DNA of 30,167 bases from a virus. Positions 8,060 to 18,739 of this stretch are shown piece by piece; the first letter of the stretch is position 1, and every line of letters starts with the position of its first letter. The notes beneath the pieces were generated by a model, which saw only the letters and a list, made by a program, of their open reading frames with translations, was not told the origin of the DNA and did no database searches. The position numbers and the translations under genes were made by a program. The DNA lies in IMG/VR virus record IMGVR_UViG_3300034107_000065, positions 1 to 30,167 of that record; one strand, given 5' to 3'.

Positions 8060-8574
8060 TTACCTGAGCCACCGAAGTACGTAGCAAGGATGCTGTACAA
8101 CCGCTTGGCATCAAACAAGCTAATATTATTTACGATCTCTTGCACATGGTCAGGCGGGTTCTGTTCTTCCACCAGTGCTGTAATGCCTGCTGTAGAAGTT
8201 CTAAGCTTAGAAGTTTTTGGTTTATTTACCTTACCTTCCCGCTTGGCAGTAGCCTTAGCTGACTTGATAGGGGAGTACTCTTTCCCATTGGGGCGTAGCA
8301 ACCCGTCGCTATCTTTATAGATATGCCCTTGCCGTATCATCTGACCAAGCAGTGATGACACAGATGACTTCTTATGTCCTTGCTGCACAAGGACTCGGAT
8401 TGCGTCGTTCCGAGTACAGCCCGAGTTATCACGGACAAAGTTAAATGTCTTCTTTGATACGTTGTTTGTAGGTGCGAACAATTTAGGTCCTTTAGGTTGT
8501 TCAGTTGTTTCGATTGTTTTGGGTTCTTCCCAAGTTCGCAATATCTTTTGCATTTCTGTTTGAATATCAGGCAT
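8056..8574 (-). CDS. Winged-helix-like DNA-binding protein, 172 aa
   Basis: Start set at ATG 8574 (MPDIQTEMQKILRTWEE): GAGG lies 6 bases upstream and the overlap with the previous stop is 8 bases. Residues ~45-95 (NFVRDNSGCTRNDAIRVLVQ, KKSSVSSLLGQMIRQGHIYK) have the helix-turn-helix and wing spacing of MarR/winged-helix folds. A Lys/Arg-rich linker follows (SAKATAKREGKVNKPKTSKL), then a helical C-terminus. The linker codons overlap a copy of the dispersed 20-base palindrome (8199-8212). Probable transcription or replication regulator; target unknown. Confidence 0.7.
   Translation of the reverse strand: MPDIQTEMQKILRTWEEPKTIETTEQPKGPKLFAPTNNVSKKTFNFVRDNSGCTRNDAIRVLVQQGHKKSSVSSLLGQMIRQGHIYKDSDGLLRPNGKEYSPIKSAKATAKREGKVNKPKTSKLRTSTAGITALVEEQNPPDHVQEIVNNISLFDAKRLYSILATYFGGSGK
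8199..8212. repeat. Dispersed palindrome copy R1 (inside a CDS)
   Basis: Perfect TTCTAAGCTTAGAA, flanked by AG and GTTT as in the other copies. The only copy inside a confident coding sequence; in that frame it encodes part of KTSKLRTS. Confidence 0.9.
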
Positions 8575-8740
8575 CGTCATCCTCAAATAAGTTAAGTTGT
8601 TTAGGGTCAGGCATGGTGTGCGCTAAGTCTTGCACGTCACGCAGTCGCATTTCCAGTCTTTCGCTTAATACTTTTATTAAACCCGTATGCCCATCGGCGT
8701 ATCGGATTAGTTCTTCGTCGGTCAAGTTGTCATAGTTCAT
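8567..8740 (-). CDS. Hypothetical small protein, 57 aa
   Basis: Reads MNYDNLTDEELIRYADGHTG, then LIKVLSERLEMRLRDVQDLA and an acidic tail (LNLFEDDDA). The NLTDEEL start and the amphipathic helix with leucines at 3-4 residue spacing suggest a short helical dimer. GGAG lies 5 bases before the ATG; the start overlaps the previous stop by 4 bases and the end overlaps the next ATG by 8. No family recognised. Confidence 0.75.
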   Translation of the reverse strand: MNYDNLTDEELIRYADGHTGLIKVLSERLEMRLRDVQDLAHTMPDPKQLNLFEDDDA

Positions 8741-9099
8741 CTAAGCTCCATAAAGTTAATAAGATTGTTGTCGTCGTCGGTTGTGAACCATACGATGTTG
8801 TCAGGCGGGGGCACGTTCACTTTCTTGAGATGCCCACCTACCGTTGCGACTGCCCTGATTCTCTCTAGCCAATCAGGTAAGTCTGTCACTATCCCACGGG
8901 ATGCTTCCTCGTGTCCGTCACGCCATCGCTTAAGCGTGTAGTCACCATCACGTTCTTCGTATCTGCATTCATACATAGGATTGTCTTTGTGGTATCCAAG
9001 TTTATGTTCTAGCGTTCGAAGGGCGTCGGACTTTGCTCGCCCATGTCTGTCTGCTACTTCCATGATCTCAGTTACCATCGCCTTCACTTTCCCCATCAT
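8737..9099 (-). CDS. Hypothetical protein, 120 aa
   Basis: MMGKVKAMVTEIMEVADRHG then a charged, mixed alpha/beta region (YECRYEERDGDYTLKRWRDG) and an acidic end (WFTTDDDNNLINFMELR). A second ATG three bases on is better spaced from the GGGGG ribosome binding site, so the start could be 9096. It overlaps the DUF3150-like gene by 32 bases. Function unknown. Confidence 0.65.
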   Translation of the reverse strand: MMGKVKAMVTEIMEVADRHGRAKSDALRTLEHKLGYHKDNPMYECRYEERDGDYTLKRWRDGHEEASRGIVTDLPDWLERIRAVATVGGHLKKVNVPPPDNIVWFTTDDDNNLINFMELR

Positions 9100-9994
9100 C
9101 TATCCCCCAATCAAATGCACCAAGGATTTCGTCCACCTTGATTTTGGTTAAAGCACGAGTGCTATCTTCTTCTCTCAATTCTTTAGGTGTTACCCCAGAC
9201 AATACCTCCTCAAGCTTACGCGCAGCTTTCGTCAACGCAGAATCTCCAGTTATATTCATCACATGCAACAACTCGCACAACTCCACGGCATTGGTTACCG
9301 TTGTGTCGTGAAAGGTATTCTTCTTGCCATCCTCGCTGACAGTCAAGCGATCACTTAACTTACTGATAGCCTTGTACAACCGAGTCCATGAGTCTTGGTT
9401 AGCTGCCTTGATCTTGGCATCAAGCTTCTCCTCGTACTGCTCGATCAACTGGCGTTGTACCTCGCTCTCAATGTCTAACCTAAAGTCACCGCCAGTAGGC
9501 AAGGGAGTGAACGATGTCTCCATACGGAAACGCTGTGCTACCTTACCCCTGCTTGGGTACTCGCCACGATCAAACAATGTGCCAAGTTGGAACGCTGCCC
9601 CTGCTACGAGGGTCTCGTACTTGTCCAAGAACGCATCGACCAAACGATTGAACTCTGTGTTATACCTACCCATAACCTTTTGATAGTCAAGCAGTGCTGC
9701 AGTGGGCAACAGTCTTGCACCTTGGTCATTCCATGGGAGAGTCAAGCGATAGTGTTCGGCTCGGGCACGGGCTTGGAACTTGGTGATAGCTTCCAACTCT
9801 TTGCACTCAGCAAATAAGTTTTTGTATACCGATGCTGCTTTCTTGGAGCCTGACCCCTTGGCATTGGTGACCTCGGCTTGCGTACTCTTGTCTTGCTTAC
9901 GACCCGAGTAGACTGCGATGTTTAAGTCCACCATCATGGCGGAACGTGCGACGCCTGCAATAGGCTTTTCTGTTTCAATTGTGTAGTAGTTCAT
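9068..9994 (-). CDS. DUF3150-like protein
   Basis: 308 residues. VDLNIAVYSGRKQDKS near the N-terminus (~23-38), HYRLTLPWNDQGARLLPTAA (~81-100), the long helical middle with YPSRGKVAQRFRMETSFTPL, and a C-terminal helical region (LCELLHVMNITGDSALTKAA) match my memory of the DUF3150 family. In phages and proteobacteria this family is encoded with a MoxR/CobS-type AAA+ ATPase and a VWA protein, and both are present here (12751-13821 and 10678-11850). It may be a substrate adaptor or a component of the complex; its activity is unknown. There is no Shine-Dalgarno; palindrome copy R2 lies immediately upstream. Confidence 0.75.
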   Translation of the reverse strand: MNYYTIETEKPIAGVARSAMMVDLNIAVYSGRKQDKSTQAEVTNAKGSGSKKAASVYKNLFAECKELEAITKFQARARAEHYRLTLPWNDQGARLLPTAALLDYQKVMGRYNTEFNRLVDAFLDKYETLVAGAAFQLGTLFDRGEYPSRGKVAQRFRMETSFTPLPTGGDFRLDIESEVQRQLIEQYEEKLDAKIKAANQDSWTRLYKAISKLSDRLTVSEDGKKNTFHDTTVTNAVELCELLHVMNITGDSALTKAARKLEEVLSGVTPKELREEDSTRALTKIKVDEILGAFDWGIDDGESEGDGN

Positions 9995-9999
9995 GATAG

Positions 10000-10013
10000 T
10001 TCTAAGGTTAGAG
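10000..10013. repeat. Dispersed palindrome copy R2 (degenerate)
   Basis: TTCTAAGGTTAGAG, one mismatch in the last half-site. Lies 6 bases upstream of the DUF3150-like start codon. Confidence 0.8.
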
Positions 10014-10280
10014 GTTTTTAGAAAGGTTGTCGTTGATTTTCATCGTCAGCTTAACTGTGTCGATGTAGTCTTGGTTCACTGGTGCTACAGTGAATAGCTC
10101 GTGTGTTACGACCGGCTTGATAGTCGGTACGTATGCGTTGTTGTACCCTTGCGAGCCTAGGTTGTTGCCCACATGCGTTTCAGTTAGTTGTTCGGCAAAC
10201 GACAACGTGTCGGTAAGAATTTCAAGTTGCCTTGCATCTATCAAAACGCTGTGCCCGTTGATGGTCATCTTAAATTTCAA
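10008..10280 (-). CDS. Hypothetical protein, 90 aa, TTG start
   Basis: Reading begins at TTG 10280 (M)KFKMTINGHSVLIDARQ; GAGG lies 7 bases upstream and the TTG overlaps the previous TGA by 4 bases, while the first ATG (10268) is 19 bases from that site. The short N-terminal beta hairpin (INGHSVLIDARQLEIL) is followed by a helix and a C-terminal half with hydrophobic strands (TIKPVVTHELFTVAPV). Not recognised. Confidence 0.65.
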   Translation of the reverse strand: MKFKMTINGHSVLIDARQLEILTDTLSFAEQLTETHVGNNLGSQGYNNAYVPTIKPVVTHELFTVAPVNQDYIDTVKLTMKINDNLSKNL

Positions 10281-10645
10281 AATGCCACCTCTATTGATCG
10301 TGATACATACATGAAGCCATTGGCGTCGCCAGTGCTATCGTCCTCAATGTCGTCGTCCTCTTCACCAAGACGCAAGAATTCGTACTCGTAGCCAAGACCT
10401 TGCACATCCGCTAAGAACTGAACGAACTTCCCAACCTCGGGGTACGAGTCGTACCATTTGATAGAGTTGGCATCGAATATCAACACGCGATGATCGTCGT
10501 CCCATTCAAAATACTCCTTGCCCCACGCCTCGAATACATCCTTGAACGTGGTGTTAAACAATAGCTTGAGCTTGTTGTACTCCAACAAGTTGTGTTCACT
10601 GTTTGCAGGGTAAATAAGCGCCTTCACATCTGATCTGTATCCCAT
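10277..10645 (-). CDS. Hypothetical protein, 122 aa
   Basis: Start at ATG 10645 (MGYRSDVKALIYPANSEHNL) with GGAG upstream and palindrome R3 just before it; a longer upstream reading has no ribosome binding site. Sequence is mixed alpha/beta with an acidic, aromatic middle (EAWGKEYFEWDDDHRVLIFD, SIKWYDSYPEVGKFVQFL) and an acidic loop (GEEDDDIEDDSTGD). MGYRSDV-x-x-x-IY with WYDSYP is a pattern I have seen in phage proteins encoded beside MoxR/VWA genes; function unknown. Confidence 0.8.
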   Translation of the reverse strand: MGYRSDVKALIYPANSEHNLLEYNKLKLLFNTTFKDVFEAWGKEYFEWDDDHRVLIFDANSIKWYDSYPEVGKFVQFLADVQGLGYEYEFLRLGEEDDDIEDDSTGDANGFMYVSRSIEVAF

Positions 10646-10660
10646 GATTTTCTCCAATAG

Positions 10661-10674
10661 TTCTAAGCTTAGAA
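10661..10674. repeat. Dispersed palindrome copy R3
   Basis: Perfect TTCTAAGCTTAGAA, in the leader of the 122-residue gene. With the adjacent ribosome binding site it forms a 35-base block identical to the one at R4. Confidence 0.95.
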
Positions 10675-10677
10675 GTT

Positions 10678-11850
10678 TTAGACTTCGACACGGATAGTCG
10701 TGCCGAACGGTGCAACCATATCGGTTGTGATAGCCCACAAGGTAGGCACATTGGTGTTACCCCAGTCACCTACATAGCCATCGGTAAACTGCACAATAGC
10801 TTGTGGGTTGATGTGGTTCTCACGAAGGTAGTCAAACAACACAGAACCATCCGTACCACCACCGCCCTTGGGTTTCATGTCGGCTACTGCAAACTGACCA
10901 TCCTCGAATGTTTGATGCCCTGCTACCTTGGTGTCCCAATAGATAACGTGTGTCTTGGTTGGCTTGACTTCCTCGATGATGGTCTTGATGTTGGAAACAA
11001 ACGCAGTCATCTCGTCGCCACCGAAACACGAACCCGACGTGTCGAAGCCGATAACAAGCTCTGTCATAGTAGTCCCCACCATAGAAGGCATGTAAACGTC
11101 GTAGCTCAAGAATCTACGATTAGGCTTACGCCATGATGATTCGTCACGACCTGCGCATGTCTCGGTGATGAAGTCACGCAAGACTTTCTTCCAATCAATC
11201 TTGGGTTGCAACAAGTCACCGAACGCACCATCCGCATCGCCTGCACCCTTGCCCTGCATCTTGCGACGCACGATCTCACCCTGACGAATGGCTCGTTGTA
11301 TCTCATTGCCACGCTCGGCATCTTTAGCAGGGTCACCGCTTGTTGCGTTCTCCCAATCATGCTCGTCGAACCCTTCACCCTCATCACCACCGCCACCACC
11401 CCCGCCTTCCTCTTGCTCTTGCTTAAGGTCTTCGAAGATTTGTTTGACTGACCACCCACGATACTTAGCATCAGGTTGCACACCTAACTCGGGCATCTTG
11501 ATGAACCCCTCGCCGTCATCCATATCTACTAAGGATAAGTTAACGAAGTGATCTGCTGCGATGTTGGCAAGTTGTGCATCCTCGTCATGCAATGCTGACC
11601 ATACTTGCAAGTGACGATACGCCTTGTGCTGACCCTCATGCAAGATGAGGAAGCGCAACTCAGGGTCGGTCTTCATGTGTTCTTCAATGAAGGCAGGGTT
11701 GTAGATTACATCCCAACCGTTAGTAGCTGCGGTAGGTACGTCGTCGTTTACCTTGACCTTGCCACATGCGAGGATACCGCTATACACACAGAACTTTTTG
11801 TGTTGCATGATAGCGATGTGTGCTTTCTTGATTCGATCTTGTACGTTCAT
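10678..11850 (-). CDS. Metallopeptidase-like plus VWA-like domain protein
   Basis: 390 residues from ATG 11850 (MNVQDRIKKAHIAIMQHKKF); GGAG upstream. The N-terminal domain carries a zinc peptidase signature LHEGQHKAYRH (HExxH at 71-75) as in DUF2201 N-terminal domains. A glycine- and glutamate-rich linker (~146-160) leads to a C-terminal VWA-like domain with a MIDAS-type D270-x-S272-x-S274 and a GGGGTDG loop (T333 D334). This two-domain form usually works with a MoxR-type ATPase, here at 12751-13821, in complexes thought to load metal or remodel proteins. Whether the peptidase is active is not known. Palindromes R3 and R4 flank the gene. Confidence 0.9.
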   Translation of the reverse strand: MNVQDRIKKAHIAIMQHKKFCVYSGILACGKVKVNDDVPTAATNGWDVIYNPAFIEEHMKTDPELRFLILHEGQHKAYRHLQVWSALHDEDAQLANIAADHFVNLSLVDMDDGEGFIKMPELGVQPDAKYRGWSVKQIFEDLKQEQEEGGGGGGGDEGEGFDEHDWENATSGDPAKDAERGNEIQRAIRQGEIVRRKMQGKGAGDADGAFGDLLQPKIDWKKVLRDFITETCAGRDESSWRKPNRRFLSYDVYMPSMVGTTMTELVIGFDTSGSCFGGDEMTAFVSNIKTIIEEVKPTKTHVIYWDTKVAGHQTFEDGQFAVADMKPKGGGGTDGSVLFDYLRENHINPQAIVQFTDGYVGDWGNTNVPTLWAITTDMVAPFGTTIRVEV

Positions 11851-11865
11851 GATTTTCTCCAATAG

Positions 11866-11879
11866 TTCTAAGCTTAGAA
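11866..11879. repeat. Dispersed palindrome copy R4
   Basis: Perfect TTCTAAGCTTAGAA between the VWA gene start and the stop of the 197-residue gene; that stop codon (TAA, 11874-11876) lies inside the palindrome. Confidence 0.95.
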
Positions 11880-12467
11880 GTTATGTGTTGTTGGGATAGG
11901 GAACTCTTCATCTCTATCTAGTCGTGATGCAATCATCTCAGCAAGGGCGATCTCTTCAACAGTACGCTCTCGTAAGAACACCTCTGCAATTTGTTTGCGT
12001 ATGGTAGATTGCCGTACAACAAGGGTGTGTGAGTTGACATGGGCAGCCTTAACTTTCTCTATGTGTTCCGAATGCCTGCGATCAATGGTCTTGTAATACT
12101 CATCCCTCTTTGGTGTGTAGTCGTTCTTCTTTATATCGTCGTAGCCCATCTTCTGCAGGGTGCAATCTGCCTCAAGCATGCCGATGATCTCTGACAAATT
12201 ACCCTCAGTGATAGGGCGTGGTGTACGTAGCCCCATGTAGTCAGCATCCGTTACCACATAGATAGAAGGTTTTATGTCGCCCAAGTCAAACACAAGGTTA
12301 CGCACCTTCTTGGTTTTGCTATACCACCCACCGTTGTGGATGCCTGTTGCAATACTCTTGCGCACCATGTTGCGCATTGTTTTAGTCAAGCGCATTGGGT
12401 TAAAGGTAGCCACGGTGACTACACCGGGTGCTTGCAGTTGCCTTGCGATTTTGTACATTTCGCTCAT
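11874..12467 (-). CDS. Hypothetical protein, 197 aa
   Basis: MSEMYKIARQLQAPGVVTVA leads into a basic segment (FNPMRLTKTMRNMVRKSIAT) and a beta-rich middle (VRNLVFDLGDIKPSIYVVTD). The C-terminal half is helical and charged (IRKQIAEVFLRERTVEEIAL). Not recognised. AAGGA precedes the ATG at 12467, which overlaps the upstream stop by 4 bases. It ends THNF-stop with the stop codon inside palindrome R4. Confidence 0.75.
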   Translation of the reverse strand: MSEMYKIARQLQAPGVVTVATFNPMRLTKTMRNMVRKSIATGIHNGGWYSKTKKVRNLVFDLGDIKPSIYVVTDADYMGLRTPRPITEGNLSEIIGMLEADCTLQKMGYDDIKKNDYTPKRDEYYKTIDRRHSEHIEKVKAAHVNSHTLVVRQSTIRKQIAEVFLRERTVEEIALAEMIASRLDRDEEFPIPTTHNF

Positions 12468-12640
12468 GATTTTTTCCTTGGTTGGTTATTTAAAAGTCCT
12501 GTTTGTAAATTCCATGCGTCTTTAGACTGCACGTAGTTAGGTAGTGGGCGTTGATACGCCCTGCTGATGCGGTTAGGATGCCAGTCTTTGTGTAGTCGCA
12601 CGATGGTGCGACCGTCGCTTGTTCGTTCTGTTATTAACAT
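12464..12640 (-). CDS. Hypothetical small basic protein, 58 aa
   Basis: Start at ATG 12640 (MLITERTSDGRTIVRLHKDW) with GGAG 6 bases upstream. Basic and polar (HPNRISRAYQRPLPNYVQSK), ending QPRKKS. Possibly nucleic-acid binding; no family recognised. Overlaps the tiny membrane ORF stop by one base (TGATG) and the next start by 4. Confidence 0.65.
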   Translation of the reverse strand: MLITERTSDGRTIVRLHKDWHPNRISRAYQRPLPNYVQSKDAWNLQTGLLNNQPRKKS

Positions 12641-12729
12641 CACGGTCTCCAATAAAATAAGTCAATGACTAGCACAATGATGGCTAGGGCTAAGATCAAA
12701 CGCTCGAGGCGTTCCCATGGTGTAAACAT
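12640..12729 (-). CDS. Putative 29-residue membrane micropeptide
   Basis: Reads MFTPWERLERLILALAIIVL then VIDLFYWRP. A charged N-terminus is followed by about 16 consecutive mostly hydrophobic residues and an aromatic-basic end, the form of a single-pass micropeptide. Its TGA overlaps the next ATG by one base. There is no good Shine-Dalgarno; palindrome R5 is immediately upstream of the ATG. Real translation is uncertain. Confidence 0.45.
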   Translation of the reverse strand: MFTPWERLERLILALAIIVLVIDLFYWRP

Positions 12730-12733
12730 AATG

Positions 12734-12747
12734 TTCTAAGCTTAGAA
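12734..12747. repeat. Dispersed palindrome copy R5
   Basis: Perfect TTCTAAGCTTAGAA just downstream of the MoxR-like gene stop and just upstream of the 29-residue ORF. Confidence 0.95.
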
Positions 12748-12750
12748 GTA

Positions 12751-13821
12751 TTAGAAGAACTTACCAAGCTTCGCTGCTTGGGTCGTGAACTTACGGCTAC
12801 CACATGCCATGCCTACCTTGGACTTGTTGGATGCAAGAGATGTAATGAACAACGCATGTGCCTCGAACGATTCGTTAGCCATACGATCTGAGTAGTCCAT
12901 AACTGCGTCGATAGTCTTAGCATCGACACGACCCGCCAACATGAATGCGAGAATGAACAACGCACCCGCACTTGTTGGAACCTTAGCCTTGAACGGGTCT
13001 TTCACAATGGTCTCAAACAATGGCAGTTGATCTGCTAAGTTGATGAGCGCATCCATATCCCTAGCTGCTGCTTCACCCACCGTACCTGCTAGTGCAGGGA
13101 GAGTGGCATCACCAAGTACGGATCGGAGTTTAATGATGTTGGATGCTTTCTCGAGTGAACGAGGCGAGCAGTATGCTTTCACGTTGCCCGTCAATGGGTT
13201 GAAGATGTAGGGATTCTTAGCCTTGGCATCGAGGTCTACGTAGCAGTCGAATACCTGCGGATACTGCTTGGCAAATGCCATTACCTCGGGGGCTATGTTG
13301 TTGTCTGATGCCCACTCAATCCACTGGTCAGCAGTTGGATTACCTAACACGGCTACAGTCATGCGGTTATACGCATGGGCAGGGATGTTGTCACCCACAC
13401 CATCTGTATCTAGGTTAGTCGTTGCAAATACTATTGAGCCAGTCGGCAAGGGTACGTCACCCACACGATGCTCGAGGATAGTCGGCAACAACATGTTCAT
13501 CACAGGGCGTGATGCTTTACCCAACTCATCAAGCATAAGTATGACGGGTCGAGTCTGATTCTTACCTACACCGAAGCGCACATTGGGTGCATACGATGTG
13601 GTCATGTTCTCTCGGTCAATGACAGGCATAGCCAAGTCACCGAGGTCTAAGTTTGCGCAGTCGATGTAGCACACCTGATAGTCAGGCATCTCACGACCCA
13701 GTGTACCAAGCAAAGACGATTTGCCTACGCCGGGCTGACCTCGCAAGAGGATGGTGTTTGTTGTACCTACGTTACGGATGAGGGTGAATGCCTGAGACAG
13801 GCTGAGGTTTAACGTGTTCAT
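12751..13821 (-). CDS. MoxR/CobS-like AAA+ ATPase
   Basis: 356 residues. Walker A GQPGVGKSS (28-36), Walker B VILMLDE (93-99), sensor 1 FATTN (132-136) and AYNR with an arginine-finger candidate R153. The shape matches the MoxR/CobS branch of AAA+ proteins, which act as hexameric ATP-driven partners of VWA proteins, as in magnesium or cobalt chelatases and MoxR complexes. The likely partners are the VWA metallopeptidase and the DUF3150-like protein downstream in the same operon; substrate and biological role in the phage are unknown. GGAAA lies 8 bases before the ATG. Confidence 0.9.
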   Translation of the reverse strand: MNTLNLSLSQAFTLIRNVGTTNTILLRGQPGVGKSSLLGTLGREMPDYQVCYIDCANLDLGDLAMPVIDRENMTTSYAPNVRFGVGKNQTRPVILMLDELGKASRPVMNMLLPTILEHRVGDVPLPTGSIVFATTNLDTDGVGDNIPAHAYNRMTVAVLGNPTADQWIEWASDNNIAPEVMAFAKQYPQVFDCYVDLDAKAKNPYIFNPLTGNVKAYCSPRSLEKASNIIKLRSVLGDATLPALAGTVGEAAARDMDALINLADQLPLFETIVKDPFKAKVPTSAGALFILAFMLAGRVDAKTIDAVMDYSDRMANESFEAHALFITSLASNKSKVGMACGSRKFTTQAAKLGKFF

Positions 13822-13853
13822 TTTGATTTCCAGTTGAATAAAAGGTTTGAAAG

Positions 13854-13867
13854 TTCTAAGGTTAGAA
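13854..13867. repeat. Dispersed palindrome copy R6
   Basis: TTCTAAGGTTAGAA (GG centre) in the 73-base gap upstream of the MoxR-like gene. Confidence 0.9.
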
Positions 13868-13894
13868 GTTTATGAAAATAGGCTTTCGCCATGC

Positions 13895-14653
13895 TTACAA
13901 GACGTATGTCTCAGAACGAGACACAACATACATTGTCTTTTTACATTGAGCCATGATGCGTGCCCAACATGCTTTTGCATCTGCTCTTTCGGTGTACTCG
14001 TACCCACCATACGAATAAGTACGCTCGAATTTGTTGCGAGAGATATAGGTCTTCCACTGATCGGCTTGATTGTTATCTGTCAGTGTGTCGGGTAGGCATA
14101 TCCCAAACATGGGAACCCGTAGTTCAGCATCTTCTACTGTTGTTACGGCATACAGTAACTTGAACGCATCGGTAAACCCTGACTCTTGCAAGTCGTTGGC
14201 TAGTTCTTTGGTTGCGACTCGATCAACTTTCTTCTGCTCGAACGCTTGAAGTGGCGTGATGATGTCGCCTTGGGCATTGAGTGTGATGCCGTCATAGAAG
14301 TAGTAGAGCTTGTTGTGTACACGGAGAGTTGGTTGGCTGTAGCTGAAGATGCTACGCTTGTGCAAGTTTAAGTACACCATGTCAGTCATGAAACCAAACG
14401 CTTCGTTGAGGCGGATGATCGTGGTGTTATGTGTGTGGTATCCGTTGGTGTCGATCTTCACATCGCCATTCGGATAGGCAGTAATGATGTCGGTGCTATA
14501 CATGCGGATGCGCATGGTGTCGTCGTTACCCTTGACCACACGATAGTGGTCCATTGCACGTCGGTGCGCATTGGCAGGGGCGCTGCCCTTGTTCTTGCCA
14601 CGCTTATACATGTGGCGCTCAAGGTGCATTGAAAGTTTTGTGTACATGTTCAT
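13895..14653 (-). CDS. Hypothetical protein, 252 aa
   Basis: Begins MNMYTKLSMHLERHMYKRGK, basic and histidine-rich, then a beta-rich region (DDTMRIRMYSTDIITAYPNG, GYHTHNTTIIRLNEAFGFMT) and an aromatic middle (VHNKLYYFYDGITL). The C-terminal third is helical with KACWARIMAQCKKTMYVVSR. GGAG lies upstream of ATG 14653, with palindrome R7 just before it. Not recognised; an uncharacterised large phage protein of the early operon. Confidence 0.8.
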   Translation of the reverse strand: MNMYTKLSMHLERHMYKRGKNKGSAPANAHRRAMDHYRVVKGNDDTMRIRMYSTDIITAYPNGDVKIDTNGYHTHNTTIIRLNEAFGFMTDMVYLNLHKRSIFSYSQPTLRVHNKLYYFYDGITLNAQGDIITPLQAFEQKKVDRVATKELANDLQESGFTDAFKLLYAVTTVEDAELRVPMFGICLPDTLTDNNQADQWKTYISRNKFERTYSYGGYEYTERADAKACWARIMAQCKKTMYVVSRSETYVL

Positions 14654-14669
14654 TTGATTTCTCCAATAG

Positions 14670-14683
14670 TTCTAAGGTTAGAA
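14670..14683. repeat. Dispersed palindrome copy R7
   Basis: TTCTAAGGTTAGAA in the leader of the 252-residue gene; contains the stop codon (14678-14680) of the 73-residue gene. Confidence 0.95.
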
Positions 14684-14899
14684 GTTAGTTGTTTGCTTGG
14701 GGTTGAGTTGCATTAGTATTGTTCGGTCAGTCACTACAATACAGTTAGACTTATTCATCGGCACAATGGTGTGTTTAACCTTGCGCGATTCGCTTTCACC
14801 ACATGCCATGCAAGTGGGTCGTTTCATGTGTTTGCGCTGAGGTTCGACCCTCACGGCATAACAACAAGTGCAGATTGGTAGGTATAAGTTTTCGCTCAT
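14678..14899 (-). CDS. Zinc-finger-like small protein, 73 aa
   Basis: Cysteine pairs CTCC (~10-13) and CMAC (~30-33) with a basic spacer (VRVEPQRKHMKRP) resemble a zinc ribbon. It starts at ATG 14899 with AAGGGA upstream and ends TTNF-stop with the stop inside palindrome R7. Probably a nucleic-acid or protein-binding small factor; family not recognised. Confidence 0.7.
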   Translation of the reverse strand: MSENLYLPICTCCYAVRVEPQRKHMKRPTCMACGESESRKVKHTIVPMNKSNCIVVTDRTILMQLNPKQTTNF

Positions 14900-14943
14900 G
14901 GTGTTCCCTTACAGTTTGTCTAGCGTCTATACGGCTTGCGAAC

Positions 14944-14960
14944 CAACGGCTTAGCCGTTG
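14944..14960. repeat. Hairpin in gap before the zinc-finger gene
   Basis: Perfect 7-bp inverted repeat CAACGGC / GCCGTTG with a 3-base loop and no T-run, so not a terminator. Lies in the 99-base gap between 14899 and 14999. Confidence 0.7.
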
Positions 14961-14998
14961 ACATTCGTACCCTTCCATCTCATCTTGAAGCAGTCGGG

Positions 14999-15289
14999 TC
15001 ATGGTGTTTCCAACTGGTACAGCACTTGGTTGCGTCGATCTTCAAGTATCTTGCGGTCGTTCTCGTCGGGTACTGCTTGATTCAACTCGAACAGACGCCA
15101 CTCTTCGTATGAGTAGGGGAAGCGTTGCAACTGTTTGTAAAACAACCTTGCGTTGCAGTCAGGACACCACGGGCTATACGATTTGCATGGCGTTGTGCTA
15201 CGGATAAACCACATCTTGTTCAAGTCTTCTTTCCACGATGGGTTAGCCATGCGGTCGAGTATCTTGTGCTTGTTCTTACGTACTTTCAT
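14999..15289 (-). CDS. Hypothetical protein, 96 aa, cysteine motif
   Basis: Start at ATG 15289 (MKVRKNKHKILDRMANPSWK), GGAG upstream and 4-base overlap with the previous stop. Contains CKSYSPWCPDCNARLFYKQL (three cysteines, partial zinc site), then FPYSYEEWRLFELNQAVPDE and a C-terminal helix. Not recognised. Confidence 0.75.
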   Translation of the reverse strand: MKVRKNKHKILDRMANPSWKEDLNKMWFIRSTTPCKSYSPWCPDCNARLFYKQLQRFPYSYEEWRLFELNQAVPDENDRKILEDRRNQVLYQLETP

Positions 15290-15543
15290 TTGCGTAACTC
15301 CACGATGATTGTTAACTTGTCGTATGTGTCGGCATCTATCTCTTGCCAACGACCGACGCCTGCCATCTTGTCCCCGAAGTCGTAAAGGGTTGAGCCATCT
15401 TCATGCTCATGCACATCACCCCAAAACTCAGAGGCGATCTTGTCCAAACATTCGAGAGGGTGACCATCTGTTTTAAACTTGACCATCGTGCTTACCTCAC
15501 TCTCACCAAAGTAAGTCTCGATTTCTCCGATGTAACATTTCAT
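15286..15543 (-). CDS. Hypothetical protein, 85 aa; first robust gene of the main leftward operon
   Basis: Start at ATG 15543 (MKCYIGEIETYFGESEVSTM) with AGGAAA upstream; palindrome R8 lies 15 bases before it. Mixed alpha/beta, acidic, with CLDKIASEFWGDVHEHEDGS and WQEIDADTYDKLTIIVELRK. It resembles uncharacterised small phage proteins of early operons. It follows a roughly 610-base leader from the promoter at 16163-16191. Confidence 0.8.
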   Translation of the reverse strand: MKCYIGEIETYFGESEVSTMVKFKTDGHPLECLDKIASEFWGDVHEHEDGSTLYDFGDKMAGVGRWQEIDADTYDKLTIIVELRK

Positions 15544-15557
15544 ATAGTTTCCTAAAG

Positions 15558-15571
15558 TTCTAAGGTTAGAA
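15558..15571. repeat. Dispersed palindrome copy R8
   Basis: TTCTAAGGTTAGAA in the leader of the 85-residue gene, between it and the hairpin-dense stretch. Confidence 0.95.
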
Positions 15572-15575
15572 GTTT

Positions 15576-15802
15576 GGTGCGGTATGCACCCAAGAGGGGA
15601 CAGCATCCCCTCCCAGTTGAATACAACTTGTTAACACGGCTTGTGCCGTGAGTAGTCTTGTCTTTGCTTTGTTTACTACGATAGGGGTTGTCGTTCACGT
15701 ATAGCCTGACCCATGTCAGTCCGTGTTCCCGTGGTTGTCTTAGCGGTAGCATCCCGAGGTGCTACATAAACTCCACTTAGCAGGCTTGTGTGTTTCCACA
15801 CA
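15576..15802. other. Hairpin-dense leader segment
   Basis: Seven short inverted repeats in 227 bases: 15576-15590 (GGTGC/GCACC), 15594-15612 (GAGGGGA/TCCCCTC), 15635-15650 (CACGGC/GCCGTG, loop TTGT), 15652-15679 (GTAGT/ACTAC), 15706-15719 (CTGAC/GTCAG), 15746-15765 (GTAGCA/TGCTAC), 15787-15802 (TGTGTG/CACACA). None has a T-run. On the - strand this is transcribed as part of the operon leader. It may be a structured RNA; weak ORFs also cross it. Confidence 0.55.
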
Positions 15803-15912
15803 TAGACCCGCACCCATTTAGGTAGTGTGCGTATGCTTTGCATGTTGCTATCGTCTTGCTGACTCTTGCCTATAAGACATACACCACAACATACTGGGGC
15901 TGAACCCAACAT
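15676..15912 (-). CDS. Uncertain ORF, 78 aa
   Basis: AGGTGA lies 5 bases before the ATG at 15912, giving some support. Sequence opens MLGSAPVCCGVCLIGKSQQD and contains LPKWVRVYVWKHTSLLSGVY then APRDATAKTTTGTRTDMGQA. The WVRVYV motif recurs as WVRLYV in the overlapping frame of 15552-15752, so this could be one frameshifted gene, two small genes, or chance readings across a structured leader. No family recognised. Confidence 0.3.
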   Translation of the reverse strand: MLGSAPVCCGVCLIGKSQQDDSNMQSIRTLPKWVRVYVWKHTSLLSGVYVAPRDATAKTTTGTRTDMGQAIRERQPLS

Positions 15913-16042
15913 CTATTCACCTAGGGAGAATCCATGACCTGCACTCTTGGGAGTCTTAGTGCCTCTATTTTTGGCGGGTCTGCATCTATATGGCTTCTGC
16001 TATAAAAAGCAGCGATGGCTCGAAGGTCTCGGGTATCAAAAG

Positions 16043-16056
16043 TTCTAAGGTTAGAA
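16043..16056. repeat. Dispersed palindrome copy R9 (most symmetric)
   Basis: Core TTCTAAGGTTAGAA; here the flanks also match, giving a perfect inverted repeat with 10-base arms AAAGTTCTAA around GG (16039-16060). It lies about 100 bases downstream of the promoter at 16163-16191 and after the boxA. Confidence 0.95.
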
Positions 16057-16089
16057 CTTTATAAGATACACAAAAACCTAACTGATAAA

Positions 16090-16103
16090 TTGTTAAAGAA
16101 CAA
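16090..16103 (-). promoter_or_regulatory. boxA-like antitermination element
   Basis: On the - strand TTGTTCTTTAACAA, followed by TTTATCAG. This closely resembles the boxA region of enterobacterial rRNA leaders (CTCTTTAACAATTTATCAG), where NusB and S10 bind the RNA to allow processive antitermination. Its place about 55 bases after a consensus promoter, with a small GGCT/AGCC hairpin at 16121-16136 between, fits a nut-like leader for the 15-kb leftward operon. Function is inferred from similarity and location. Confidence 0.65.
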
Positions 16104-16162
16104 GGTCTGCACATAGGAAAGGCTAGACACCAAGCCGAGGCGTTACTCGACTTGATAAATCA

Positions 16163-16191
16163 ATTATAACAGAATATAGGTATCTTGTCAA
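16163..16191 (-). promoter_or_regulatory. Consensus sigma70 promoter for the main leftward operon
   Basis: On the - strand TTGACA (16191-16186), 17-base spacer, TATAAT (16168-16163): both hexamers are perfect. It begins only 6 bases beyond the stop of the 158-residue gene and points into the boxA leader. A TTGAT/ATCAA inverted repeat (16152-16163) overlaps the presumed start point and could be an operator. Confidence 0.9.
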
Positions 16192-16196
16192 GCGTT

Positions 16197-16673
16197 TTAT
16201 AGTCCGTCTACCTCATCCCAATCCTTCAGAATTTCGGGGTTCTTTGGCGCATTTTTGGGGTCATCCCGTTTTCCTTCTGCAACGATTTGGTGAATACGAA
16301 TCTCGGACAGTTGGTATTCCTTGGCGAGTATGTGGCGTTTCACACCGAGCATGGCTCTGCGGTATACATCTGCATCTCGTTCTGCTCGTAGTTGTTTTAG
16401 GGGCGTGGTGGTTGAACCCTTGGCGGTTCGTTCATCTAAGCATTTGGAGATTGCTTTCTTGATGGCAGCGTGTTGGCTCATGCCGTGGGTGACTGCATAG
16501 CCTTGGGCAATGCTGAGGTGTTTCTCGCCTAGCTTAAGCCACAGTTGCAATGCGGCAATCGCAGCGCCTTCTAAGCCGTCGTCGTGGGTCTTTGCCAATT
16601 CTTCTGCAACTGAGATGGGTAGTTCAATAGTGAGGGAGTGGGTCTCGAAGTTTGCCGTGGTGGATGTTGTCAT
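16197..16673 (-). CDS. Probable DNA-binding regulator, 158 aa
   Basis: An N-terminal segment (SLTIELPISVAEELAKTHDD, then GAAIAALQLWLKLGE) has the strand-helix-helix look of ribbon-helix-helix proteins. The C-terminal segment (MLGVKRHILAKEYQLSEIRI, then HQIVAEG) looks like a helix-turn-helix. The middle is basic (KQLRAERDADVYRRAMLG). It is flanked by palindrome R10 upstream and the main leftward promoter downstream, so it is a good candidate to bind the palindromes or the GTTAC repeats; that is inference from position. AAGG lies about 9 bases before the ATG, and -10-like TATACT is at 16710-16705. Confidence 0.7.
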   Translation of the reverse strand: MTTSTTANFETHSLTIELPISVAEELAKTHDDGLEGAAIAALQLWLKLGEKHLSIAQGYAVTHGMSQHAAIKKAISKCLDERTAKGSTTTPLKQLRAERDADVYRRAMLGVKRHILAKEYQLSEIRIHQIVAEGKRDDPKNAPKNPEILKDWDEVDGL

Positions 16674-16718
16674 AGTAAAGTGCCTTGGTGGTTGTGGGGA
16701 TTTGAGTATACTATAAAG

Positions 16719-16732
16719 TTCTAAGGTTAGAA
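16719..16732. repeat. Dispersed palindrome copy R10
   Basis: TTCTAAGGTTAGAA, next to -10-like TATAGT/TATACT (16705-16715) upstream of the regulator gene, so a bound protein would block that promoter. Confidence 0.95.
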
Positions 16733-16753
16733 GTTTTGCGAAGTATAGATGTT

Positions 16754-17175
16754 GTTACGTTGTAACAAAAGGGGGGTCGGGCGTTACAAAGAGGCGTAAC
16801 TATAGCGGGAAAATGGGGAAGTGAGCAACCATGCGGGTTGCGGGAATTGTATAGTTATAGTATAGCCGTGGAATGTGTTGTTTTTATGTTGAAGTTACAC
16901 TGTAACAGGGTTTTCGGGATTGAGCGAGTCAAAAACCACACTATAGAATTATAACGACCACGAACTCACAAAAACCAAGGGTATAGTATAGCCTGATTTT
17001 GACCGTCTGAATTCCTAAAAAGCTGTTACAATGTAACAATATAATATATTATATCTATATCTCTCTCTCTCTCAGAGTTTTTGAAACGCTTAGTATTACT
17101 TTTGCAGGGCTAGTAGCAAAAAAACAACGTTACGGAGTTTTGTAACAAACTGGGGGTGTTTTGTTACATTGTAAC
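16754..17175. repeat. GTTAC-N3-GTAAC palindrome array
   Basis: Four 13-base copies of GTTAC-NNN-GTAAC at 16754-16766, 16894-16906, 17025-17037 and 17163-17175, spaced 140, 131 and 138 bases apart. Two more pairs have the same arms with 8-base spacers (16783-16800 and 17129-17146). Such iterated dyads are typical of initiator or repressor binding sites. Confidence 0.85.
17038..17073. repeat. AT-rich tract followed by CT repeat
   Basis: About 20 bases of A/T directly abut the GTTAC palindrome at 17025-17037 and run into an alternating CT tract. It resembles the easily melted element next to iterons in replication origins. Confidence 0.6.
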
Positions 17176-17189
17176 GCGGATTGCAAAAG

Positions 17190-17203
17190 TTCTAAGCTTA
17201 GAA
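17190..17203. repeat. Dispersed palindrome copy R11
   Basis: Perfect TTCTAAGCTTAGAA in the gene-free region, 14 bases after the last GTTAC palindrome. Confidence 0.95.
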
Positions 17204-17239
17204 GTTTCCCGAGAAAGTCATAGTTGTGCCACCACAAAG

Positions 17240-17253
17240 TTCTAAGGTTAGAA
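17240..17253. repeat. Dispersed palindrome copy R12
   Basis: TTCTAAGGTTAGAA, 50 bases from R11, the closest pair in the family. Confidence 0.95.
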
Positions 17254-17294
17254 GTTTTGCCTGATTGCCGAAGGTCGCCCCGATGCCCTCACTC

Positions 17295-17314
17295 ACGCAC
17301 GCACGCACGCACGC
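17295..17314. repeat. ACGC microsatellite
   Basis: Five perfect tandem ACGC units followed by GCTCTC repeats, in the gene-free region. Confidence 0.9.
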
Positions 17315-17396
17315 GCTCTCGCTCTCCCGCACGGTCAGACTACTATGACGCTTTATAAGCGCATACTATAAGAACTCATACAGAAAAGTACAGGCG

Positions 17397-17419
17397 AAAA
17401 AAAGCCCGCCGAAGCGGGC
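17397..17419 (-). terminator. Rho-independent terminator of the short leftward operon
   Basis: On the - strand GCCCGC-TTCG-GCGGGC followed by seven T. It lies 17 bases after the stop of the 57-residue gene and closes the 17436-18381 operon, insulating it from the control region. Confidence 0.93.
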
Positions 17420-17435
17420 AATGGAGTCGATGGGT

Positions 17436-17609
17436 TTACAAAACTTCAAGTTGCCAAATCATATTGGTAAACCAGTCTAGAGAGTCGACAATTGCATAAT
17501 ACTCATGATCCGATAAATCTTTGGATTTGTACGCTACCAATGCCAACAAAAGGGCTTCATGATTGCATCGGGAATCGTTATATAAAAGTTGAATGTTTCG
17601 CATTTCCAT
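17436..17609 (-). CDS. Hypothetical small protein, 57 aa
   Basis: Start set at ATG 17609 (MEMRNIQLLYNDSRCNHEAL) with GGGTGA 5 bases upstream; an in-frame GTG at 17618 is possible. Helical, with ALVAYKSKDLSDHEYYAIVD and an aromatic end (SLDWFTNMIWQLEVL). Last gene before the operon terminator; separated by one base from the two-helix membrane gene. Not recognised. Confidence 0.65.
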   Translation of the reverse strand: MEMRNIQLLYNDSRCNHEALLLALVAYKSKDLSDHEYYAIVDSLDWFTNMIWQLEVL

Positions 17610-17610
17610 G

Positions 17611-17766
17611 TTATTCACCCATAAAGTAAAAAGCCAATGAAGCGCAAACCGATAGAATCGCTACCCAAAAAAGCATTGTCGATTGACTACCAAATGCGAG
17701 CACGTTAACGACAAAACCCGCAAAGCAAATCAGGGCTTTGAATATATAGAAGTTATAGAATTTCAT
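17611..17766 (-). CDS. Two-helix membrane protein, 51 aa
   Basis: Read directly: MKFYNFYIFKALICFAGFVV, then NVLAFGSQSTMLFWVAILSV and CASLAFYFMGE. Two hydrophobic segments (~8-24 and ~31-48) are joined by a short polar turn (GSQST), giving a small two-pass inner-membrane protein. AAGGGA is 5 bases before the ATG. Its stop codon ends one base before the next ATG. Candidates are a superinfection-exclusion protein or a holin-like factor; the location in a repressed-looking early operon, not a lysis cassette, favours the former, weakly. Confidence 0.7.
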   Translation of the reverse strand: MKFYNFYIFKALICFAGFVVNVLAFGSQSTMLFWVAILSVCASLAFYFMGE

Positions 17767-17768
17767 AT

Positions 17769-17819
17769 TGTCCCTTTGGTTTGGAACACTAGGGTTTCCC
17801 CTAGTGTCCCGTTTGGTTT
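17769..17819. repeat. GAAA-loop hairpin between direct repeats
   Basis: A 9-bp perfect stem (ACACTAGGG / CCCTAGTGT, 17786-17807) with loop GAAA when read on the - strand. It is flanked by near-identical direct repeats 17769-17782 and 17805-17819 (TGTCCC-(G)-TTTGGTTT). No T-run, so not a simple terminator. It lies between the 187- and 51-residue genes. Confidence 0.8.
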
Positions 17820-18381
17820 ACTTAGCTAAAACTGTCTCTTTGAAGTCAGGGTAAGTGGCGATAATGAAATCTACTAACTCACCCGCAAAGATCGTTTGAT
17901 TCAAAATGCGGGCTTGTGCAAGGGCTTTGCTAAGTGTTTTGTGCATTTCTGCAATGGTCGTCGTTTCCACTTTGCCCGCTTTTGTGGCGGATTCTGTTTT
18001 TGCGGTTTCCACTTTTTTAGCTTCGGTCTTTGCATTTGCAAGATTACGGGAAAACGGCACACCGGTTTCAAAGGCAATCCAAAAACAACCCTGATAGGTT
18101 TTAACTGTACCCTGTGAAATATATTTGTCGTTTGCCAACTTTTCGAATAACTCTTTTACCTCTTTGCGTGCGTCATTCTTTGCAGAATTGCCTCTCATGT
18201 AAAGCGCTTTTGTTGTTGTGCATGCGACAAGATGGGCATCAACAAGTTGTTGAATGAGTTTATCCTGCTCTTGGATACTCATCAGTTCTAAGTCATCATG
18301 CGCTTTTTTAGCGTTTGCGAATGATGCGACAATGCGGTTAATGATTGTCGTGCGGGTTGCGGGTTTTGTGGACTTAGCCAT
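17818..18381 (-). CDS. Hypothetical protein, 187 aa; first gene of a short leftward operon
   Basis: Start at ATG 18381 (MAKSTKPATRTTIINRIVAS) with AAGGA upstream. Residues ~1-110 are helical (DLELMSIQEQDKLIQQLVDA, KNDARKEVKELFEKLANDKY) and include a SQGTVKTYQGCFWIAFETGV stretch that could be a helix-turn-helix-like or recombinase-core-like element. A low-complexity Lys/Thr/Glu/Ala linker (~120-145) leads to a C-terminal helix (LSKALAQARILNQTIFAGEL). It is the first gene after a promoter containing a palindromic operator, a typical place for an early regulator; function not recognised. Confidence 0.7.
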   Translation of the reverse strand: MAKSTKPATRTTIINRIVASFANAKKAHDDLELMSIQEQDKLIQQLVDAHLVACTTTKALYMRGNSAKNDARKEVKELFEKLANDKYISQGTVKTYQGCFWIAFETGVPFSRNLANAKTEAKKVETAKTESATKAGKVETTTIAEMHKTLSKALAQARILNQTIFAGELVDFIIATYPDFKETVLAK

Positions 18382-18438
18382 CTTGATTCCTTTGAATAGC
18401 ATTGATTTAAATATCAGTCAAAATTAACTGACAACTTA

Positions 18439-18467
18439 AGTATCACCGATTCGACAATGATTGTCAA
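18439..18467 (-). promoter_or_regulatory. Leftward promoter with embedded palindromic operator
   Basis: On the - strand TTGACA (18467-18462), 17-base spacer, GATACT (18444-18439). A perfect 13-base palindrome GACAATGATTGTC (18453-18465) covers most of the -35 and the start of the spacer, so a dimeric protein bound there would compete with RNA polymerase. A second imperfect dyad (TCAGT/ACTGA) lies downstream near 18414-18431. Confidence 0.75.
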
Positions 18468-18480
18468 TAGTTACACTTAG

Positions 18481-18494
18481 ATCTAACCTTAGAA
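18481..18494. repeat. Dispersed palindrome copy R13 (inverted, one mismatch)
   Basis: ATCTAACCTTAGAA on the + strand, that is TTCTAAGGTTAGAT in the orientation of the other copies. The only copy with the asymmetric centre reversed, upstream of the promoter at 18439-18467. Confidence 0.75.
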
Positions 18495-18739
18495 CTAATT
18501 TGGGCATGGTTTGACCCCACCGCCCCCCGACCCCAAGCTGTGGGTAGCGGGACTCCGCGTCGGCTATACGCTGAGCGTAGCATCCGCGAAGACCACAAAA
18601 TCACCAAGCCTATACAAAAATATACCGCCCACACAGACCCACCCCCCTTCCACAGAAAAGGCCCCCCATGCAAAAATAAAACACACAATAAAAAAATTAC
18701 ATATATAATCCGCAAAAAACAACGGCTGCTATTCCGCCT
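18495..18739. other. C-rich intergenic region upstream of the terminase genes
   Basis: 245 bases between divergent arms. It contains several C-runs (near 18517-18534, 18648-18655, 18662-18667), an imperfect TACGC/GCGTA hairpin near 18567-18579, then an A-rich stretch with TATAAT (18704-18709) lacking a good -35. ORFs crossing it look like chance readings. The position directly before the small terminase gene is where pac or cos sites often lie. Confidence 0.5.

Follow-up and report, generated by a model that had tools for sequence, protein, structure and literature searches.

The question raised by this locus is what a set of regularly spaced palindromes does in a gene-free part of a phage genome, here a stretch of 30,167 nucleotides from a virus (IMG/VR record IMGVR_UViG_3300034107_000065), hereafter called the window. 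An earlier note on this DNA had described four 13-base dyads 131-140 bases apart, two further pairs of the same arms with 8-base spacers, one dyad abutting a stretch of A/T and a CT tract, and the absence of any gene, and had suggested a replication origin with a phage-encoded initiator or else a repressor array. This description was confirmed, and the features are collected in Table 1. Exact GTTAC-N3-GTAAC dyads occur four times (D1 to D4), at spacings of 140 (D1-D2), 131 (D2-D3) and 138 bp (D3-D4), and no further one was found elsewhere in the window, even with one mismatch allowed. The gap of about 763 bp that holds them (16674-17435) is bounded by the gene 16197-16673 on one side and by a leftward terminator-like hairpin on the other, and no ORF of at least 60 aa lies within it on either strand; an Rfam search gave no match. 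The six GTTAC and six GTAAC words of the gap are all used by six dyads, D1-D4 and the pairs E1 and E2, which lie within 422 bp and are conserved in relatives. The array is mirror-symmetrical, with a common axis near 16965 for D1/D4, E1/E2 and D2/D3, and the centres of E2 and D4 are as far apart as those of D1 and E1.

Table 1. Features in and around the dyad array (positions in the window)
Feature	Position	Strand	Remarks
Gene for 158-aa protein, RHH-like N-terminal half and Mor-like HTH; proposed array binder	16197..16673	-	
Presumed -10 (TATACT), promoter of gene 16197-16673	16705..16710	-	by inspection; TGnTATACT or near variants in relatives
Second-class dyad (TTCTAA..TTAGAA type), left of array	16717..16734		
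D1, N3 dyad GTTACGTTGTAAC	16754..16766		exact match; kept in relatives
E1, GTTAC-N8-GTAAC pair	16783..16800		centre 31.5 bp from D1 centre
D2, N3 dyad GTTACACTGTAAC	16894..16906		exact match
Left arm of 41-nt imperfect inverted repeat (D2 + GTCAAAA)	16894..16934		arms 78% complementary
Right arm of 41-nt imperfect inverted repeat (TTTTGAC + D3)	16997..17037		78% complementary to left arm
D3, N3 dyad GTTACAATGTAAC	17025..17037		exact match
AT-rich tract, candidate DNA-unwinding element	17038..17060		abuts D3; most easily melted 25- and 40-bp spot of window
CT tract after AT tract	17060..17073		found in nearly all relatives
Conserved box TTTTGAAACGCTTAGTATTAC	17079..17099		3' of D3
E2, GTTAC-N8-GTAAC pair	17129..17146		34 bp ahead of D4 in 25/25 aligned arrays
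D4, N3 dyad GTTACATTGTAAC	17163..17175		exact match; kept in relatives
Second-class dyad, right of array	17188..17205		
Second-class dyad, right of array, second copy	17238..17255		
Terminator-like hairpin with T run	17404..17419	-	parts array from leftward genes at 17436-18402

IMG/VR was scanned for stretches with two GTTAC-N3-GTAAC dyads 118-148 bp apart, and 47 were obtained. Counted by spacing, about 28 of them hold a homologous array, and about nineteen (L014, L018, L026, L032 and L043, for example) look unrelated to it. A lack of conservation of the dyads would have contradicted the earlier note; their conservation in relatives speaks in its favour. A chance or functionless repeat can practically be dismissed: all that speaks for it is that short palindromes are common in general, while base composition predicts about 0.0008 exact dyads for the gap and 0.03 for the window against the four present, and 20 distinct arrays with diverged spacers refute it by their conservation. 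In the 20 non-redundant arrays the spacing is 128-140 (D1-D2), 130-132 (D2-D3) and 127-148 bp (D3-D4), the larger changes amounting to roughly one helical turn (about 10-11 bp). Phase coherence at 10.5 bp, given as the resultant over the 20 arrays, is 0.94, 0.92 and 0.98 for these three intervals and 0.40 for the distance from D1 to the start codon of the adjacent gene. Since the independent length-change events are probably few, about three by inspection of alignments, helical phasing between the dyads is suggestive and no formal proof. With a helical repeat of 10.5 bp, the intervals D1-D2 and D3-D4 measure about 12.2-13.3 turns in most arrays and D2-D3 about 12.5 turns in all 20; the sites therefore do not all lie on one face of the DNA, and the proposal that a spacing of about 13 turns would place them there was not upheld.

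Across subfamilies the sequence of the D2-D3 spacer is hardly above random (identity 0.605 vs 0.516 shuffled), and still it keeps its length. For the D1-D2 and D2-D3 spacers, compared between the two main protein subfamilies, identity is 0.61 vs 0.51 shuffled, and it is the D3-D4 part, with the AT tract, the CT tract and the box, that is better preserved (0.79). The second half of E1 reads GTTAC in most relatives. A distant third subfamily (L137-L139), whose proteins share mainly the HTH with that of the window (43-48% identity), has twelve half-sites upstream of the protein gene, partly as direct repeats; D3' is followed there by a 27-nt AT tract and CTCTCTC, the distances D3'-E2' and E2'-D4' are 103 and 33 bp (104 and 34 bp in the window), and D1'-D2' is much shorter than D1-D2. 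No array was found in the stretches examined of phages related by terminase (DSL-LC04, HTVC023P and MinM2), a point against an origin, nor were near DNA matches found among annotated phages. The phages that carry the array are uncultured and largely freshwater.

Meltability was scored by nearest-neighbour energies in the window and in the relatives G001, G002 and G003 of 61-66 kb. In all four, no stretch of 25 or of 40 bp melts more easily than the AT tract, and at 60-100 bp it ranks first in three and second to third in G002, so that an easily unwound AT-rich element lies next to the sites, as in an origin of the iteron type. An AT tract with dyads is also the look of a strong promoter region, which counts against an origin. 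Beyond D3, GAAACG or a variant of it starts after 45-46 or 56 bp in all arrays except one, and the 22 viral contigs with the exact 21-mer box TTTTGAAACGCTTAGTATTAC all carry the array; AATGAAATCAAYRASTTAG was too unspecific as a query for a search of the collection. Neither TTATNCACA nor TTWTNCACA, the DnaA boxes of a DnaA-dependent origin, was found in the gap. Inside the conserved box occurs TAGTATTAC, which varies in L016, L017 and L035. A CRESS/HUH rolling-circle nick site, where an invariant nonanucleotide is expected, was rejected because the box varies between relatives.

The same protein family is encoded beside D1 in every relative with enough sequence, its gene starting 73-135 bp from D1. 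Both the HTH of the protein (SEIRVHQI) and the half-site GTTAC/GTAAC are near invariant, which fits, but does not prove, binding of the half-sites by this protein. Similarity to Mor/C is weak: PF08765 matches 17 of 18 family members with a best E of 5.7e-5, and the window protein scores 18.6 bits, in its HTH part only, below the curated cut-off of 24.9. The PHROG matches are late transcriptional activators, and the N-terminal half is RHH-like by sequence, through few and weak RHH_1 matches. The AlphaFold model, with a pLDDT of 67 overall and 80-88 in the HTH, is only fair, and outside the HTH it is too weak for the N-terminal fold to be named. It aligns with Mu C at Z 6.7 (rmsd 11.9 over 90 aligned residues) and with Mor at Z 6.0 (rmsd 9.1 over 88), scores that tie with those of other HTH proteins. 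No match of this DNA-binding-type protein was found to known initiators or to plasmid Rep initiator families. A search of it for ATPase and primase domains found neither, and it gave no near match among annotated phages and no relatives in bacterial genomes among the pattern matches. Its profile did not match DSL-LC04, HTVC023P or MinM2, a search that shows little, having had no positive control. Its nearest relatives are transcription activators (Mor, C) and no initiators, which, like the absence of ATPase and primase domains, argues against an origin.

For this reason, and because AT tracts also mark promoters, the chief rival of an origin is looped regulation of transcription, which we consider rather unlikely. 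The Mor-like protein, bound to the dyads, would regulate its own gene or act as an activator; it would repress or activate early or middle promoters within or close to the array, and the AT tract would be a promoter or UP element. Besides the matches to Mor/C and to late activators, it agrees with this that the Mor dimer of Mu recognises a pair of inverted 5-bp repeats within 16 bp (PMC4390567), and that the centre of D1 lies about 62 bp upstream of the presumed transcription start of the gene 16197-16673. The distance from D1 to that gene is however loose and shows little helical phase, while the D1-D4 spacing is fixed; the array is therefore taken as a unit separate from that promoter, and a self-contained unit is favoured. 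In addition, a consensus scan gave 3 sigma-70-like matches in the region vs 1.5 in shuffles and did not recover the presumed -10, and no -10/-35 pair was seen conserved across both subfamilies in the alignment.

Transcription control would also be suited by operator-like dyads of a second class on both flanks of the array. These 18-bp near-palindromes are dispersed over 13 sites in 8199-18496, many just upstream of early genes, and in the window TTCTAA-SS-TTAGAA dyads stand directly ahead of the ribosome-binding sites of several leftward genes. In relatives such as G001, G003, L024, L037, L050 and L053 the forms are TTATAA, CTTAAG or TTTTAA; each phage keeps mostly to a single type, G002 being mixed, and L137-L139 have a TTATAT-CG-ATATAA-like type; the types do not track the subfamilies of the adjacent protein. 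Judged by their distribution, the second-class dyads look as if they were interchangeable operator types of a putative repressor. The stoperators of Cluster A mycobacteriophages are many dispersed early-gene sites, one type per phage and differing between relatives (PMC6550527), and in dispersal, in type per phage and in variation of type the second-class dyads are like them; unlike stoperators they are nearly palindromic, lie just before ribosome-binding sites and belong to a phage not known as temperate. At the end of contig L091 stands a perfect palindrome of 50 bp with a second-class dyad at its centre, which probably arose as an artefact of fold-back.

A replication origin of the phage, organised by the RHH/Mor-like HTH protein, is given about an even chance. 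It is the most likely reading because conserved fixed spacings, the most meltable spot and the gene of a DNA-binding protein adjoin each other; these, with the divergence of early and late genes nearby, support the origin of the earlier note in part and indirectly, and the repressor array, its other suggestion, is still a candidate. The window is a phage fragment in which the early arm runs leftward and the late arm rightward (terminase 19298, portal 20840). Near-complete relatives (61-66 kb) are organised in the same way and contain the array once per genome, adjoining the divergence of the arms. TA skew has an extremum at this divergence, but GC/TA skew follows the transcription arms and is therefore uninformative, so that the skew analysis proposed earlier gave no decision either way.

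As an initiator-type origin of a 60-66 kb tailed phage, the gap from about 16700 to 17260 would work as follows. Dimers of the adjacent protein would bind the 5-bp half-sites, and the bound dimers would pair over the 130-140 bp between them. About 420 bp would thereby be drawn together in a compact complex, whose strain would open the AT tract beside D3. The CT tract and the box may guide strand choice or helicase entry, and a phage PrimPol-DUF927 primase-helicase and family A polymerase would then be loaded. A PrimPol-DUF927 primase-helicase is encoded by G001, together with an SNF2 helicase and a PD-(D/E)XK exonuclease, and a family A polymerase gene was identified in the window; that the phage has replication enzymes of its own speaks for an origin. 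More tentatively, this could be an origin of a new type, its AT/CT tract being opened for a PrimPol-helicase by a small protein of the RHH/Mor-like HTH kind and by no ATPase initiator, with dyads 130-140 bp apart paired in fixed helical phase in a symmetrical fold of about 420 bp.

Iteron plasmid origins whose initiator gene is autoregulated likewise hold repeats, an AT tract and the gene of a DNA-binding protein in one small module, but the array differs in its long, phased spacing and in a protein that matched no plasmid Rep initiator family. The ori of phage lambda has four iterons (PMC7466680), and the array resembles it in having four initiator-type repeats by an AT-rich tract, with the gene of a presumed binding protein nearby. 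In lambda, however, the iterons form a cluster within O, a difference that counts against an origin here, whereas the dyads are 130-140 bp apart, intergenic and mirror-symmetrical, and their presumed binder is RHH/Mor-like. The Mor/C system of Mu shares the HTH similarity and the 5-bp inverted half-sites, but the spacer is 3 or 8 bp in the dyads vs 6 bp in the Mor site, and four to six sites and an RHH-like N-terminal half set the array system apart. No described origin was found for this phage group. If the origin reading is right, it would provide these phages with a defined origin, a probable binding protein and an exact site geometry; helical phasing would have been kept over long, diverged spacers, and a short piece of DNA together with a single small protein would be enough to test origin activity.

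In relatives, contigs tend to end at the start codon of the gene next to D1 or no more than about 25 bp from it, on both sides in three metagenomes; the cause may be a DNA terminus, a break in assembly or the trimming of contigs to gene borders. It is improbable that the array serves DNA ends or segregation, be it as a pac/cos site of packaging initiation or as a partition site to which the array protein binds. Six contigs (L023, L042, L053, L044, L040 and L049) end about -6 to +25 bp from that start codon and five (L005, L115, L122, L130 and L133) exactly at it, which speaks for such a site; against this, many contigs, three of 61-66 kb among them, run through the site, the exact ends may be due to trimming at gene borders, and the presumed terminase small subunit gene (18740) is about 1.6 kb from the array.

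Two further sequences were seen in and around the gap. ACGC repeats followed by CTCTCCCGCACGGTCAGACTACTATGACGC lie at 17270-17370 and are common to L007, L035, L044 and L058, with similar ones in L009 and L011. The box GTCATAGT flanks the array in two copies of like orientation, at 16669-16676, where it includes the start codon of the gene 16197-16673, and at 17217-17224, and is kept in most relatives.
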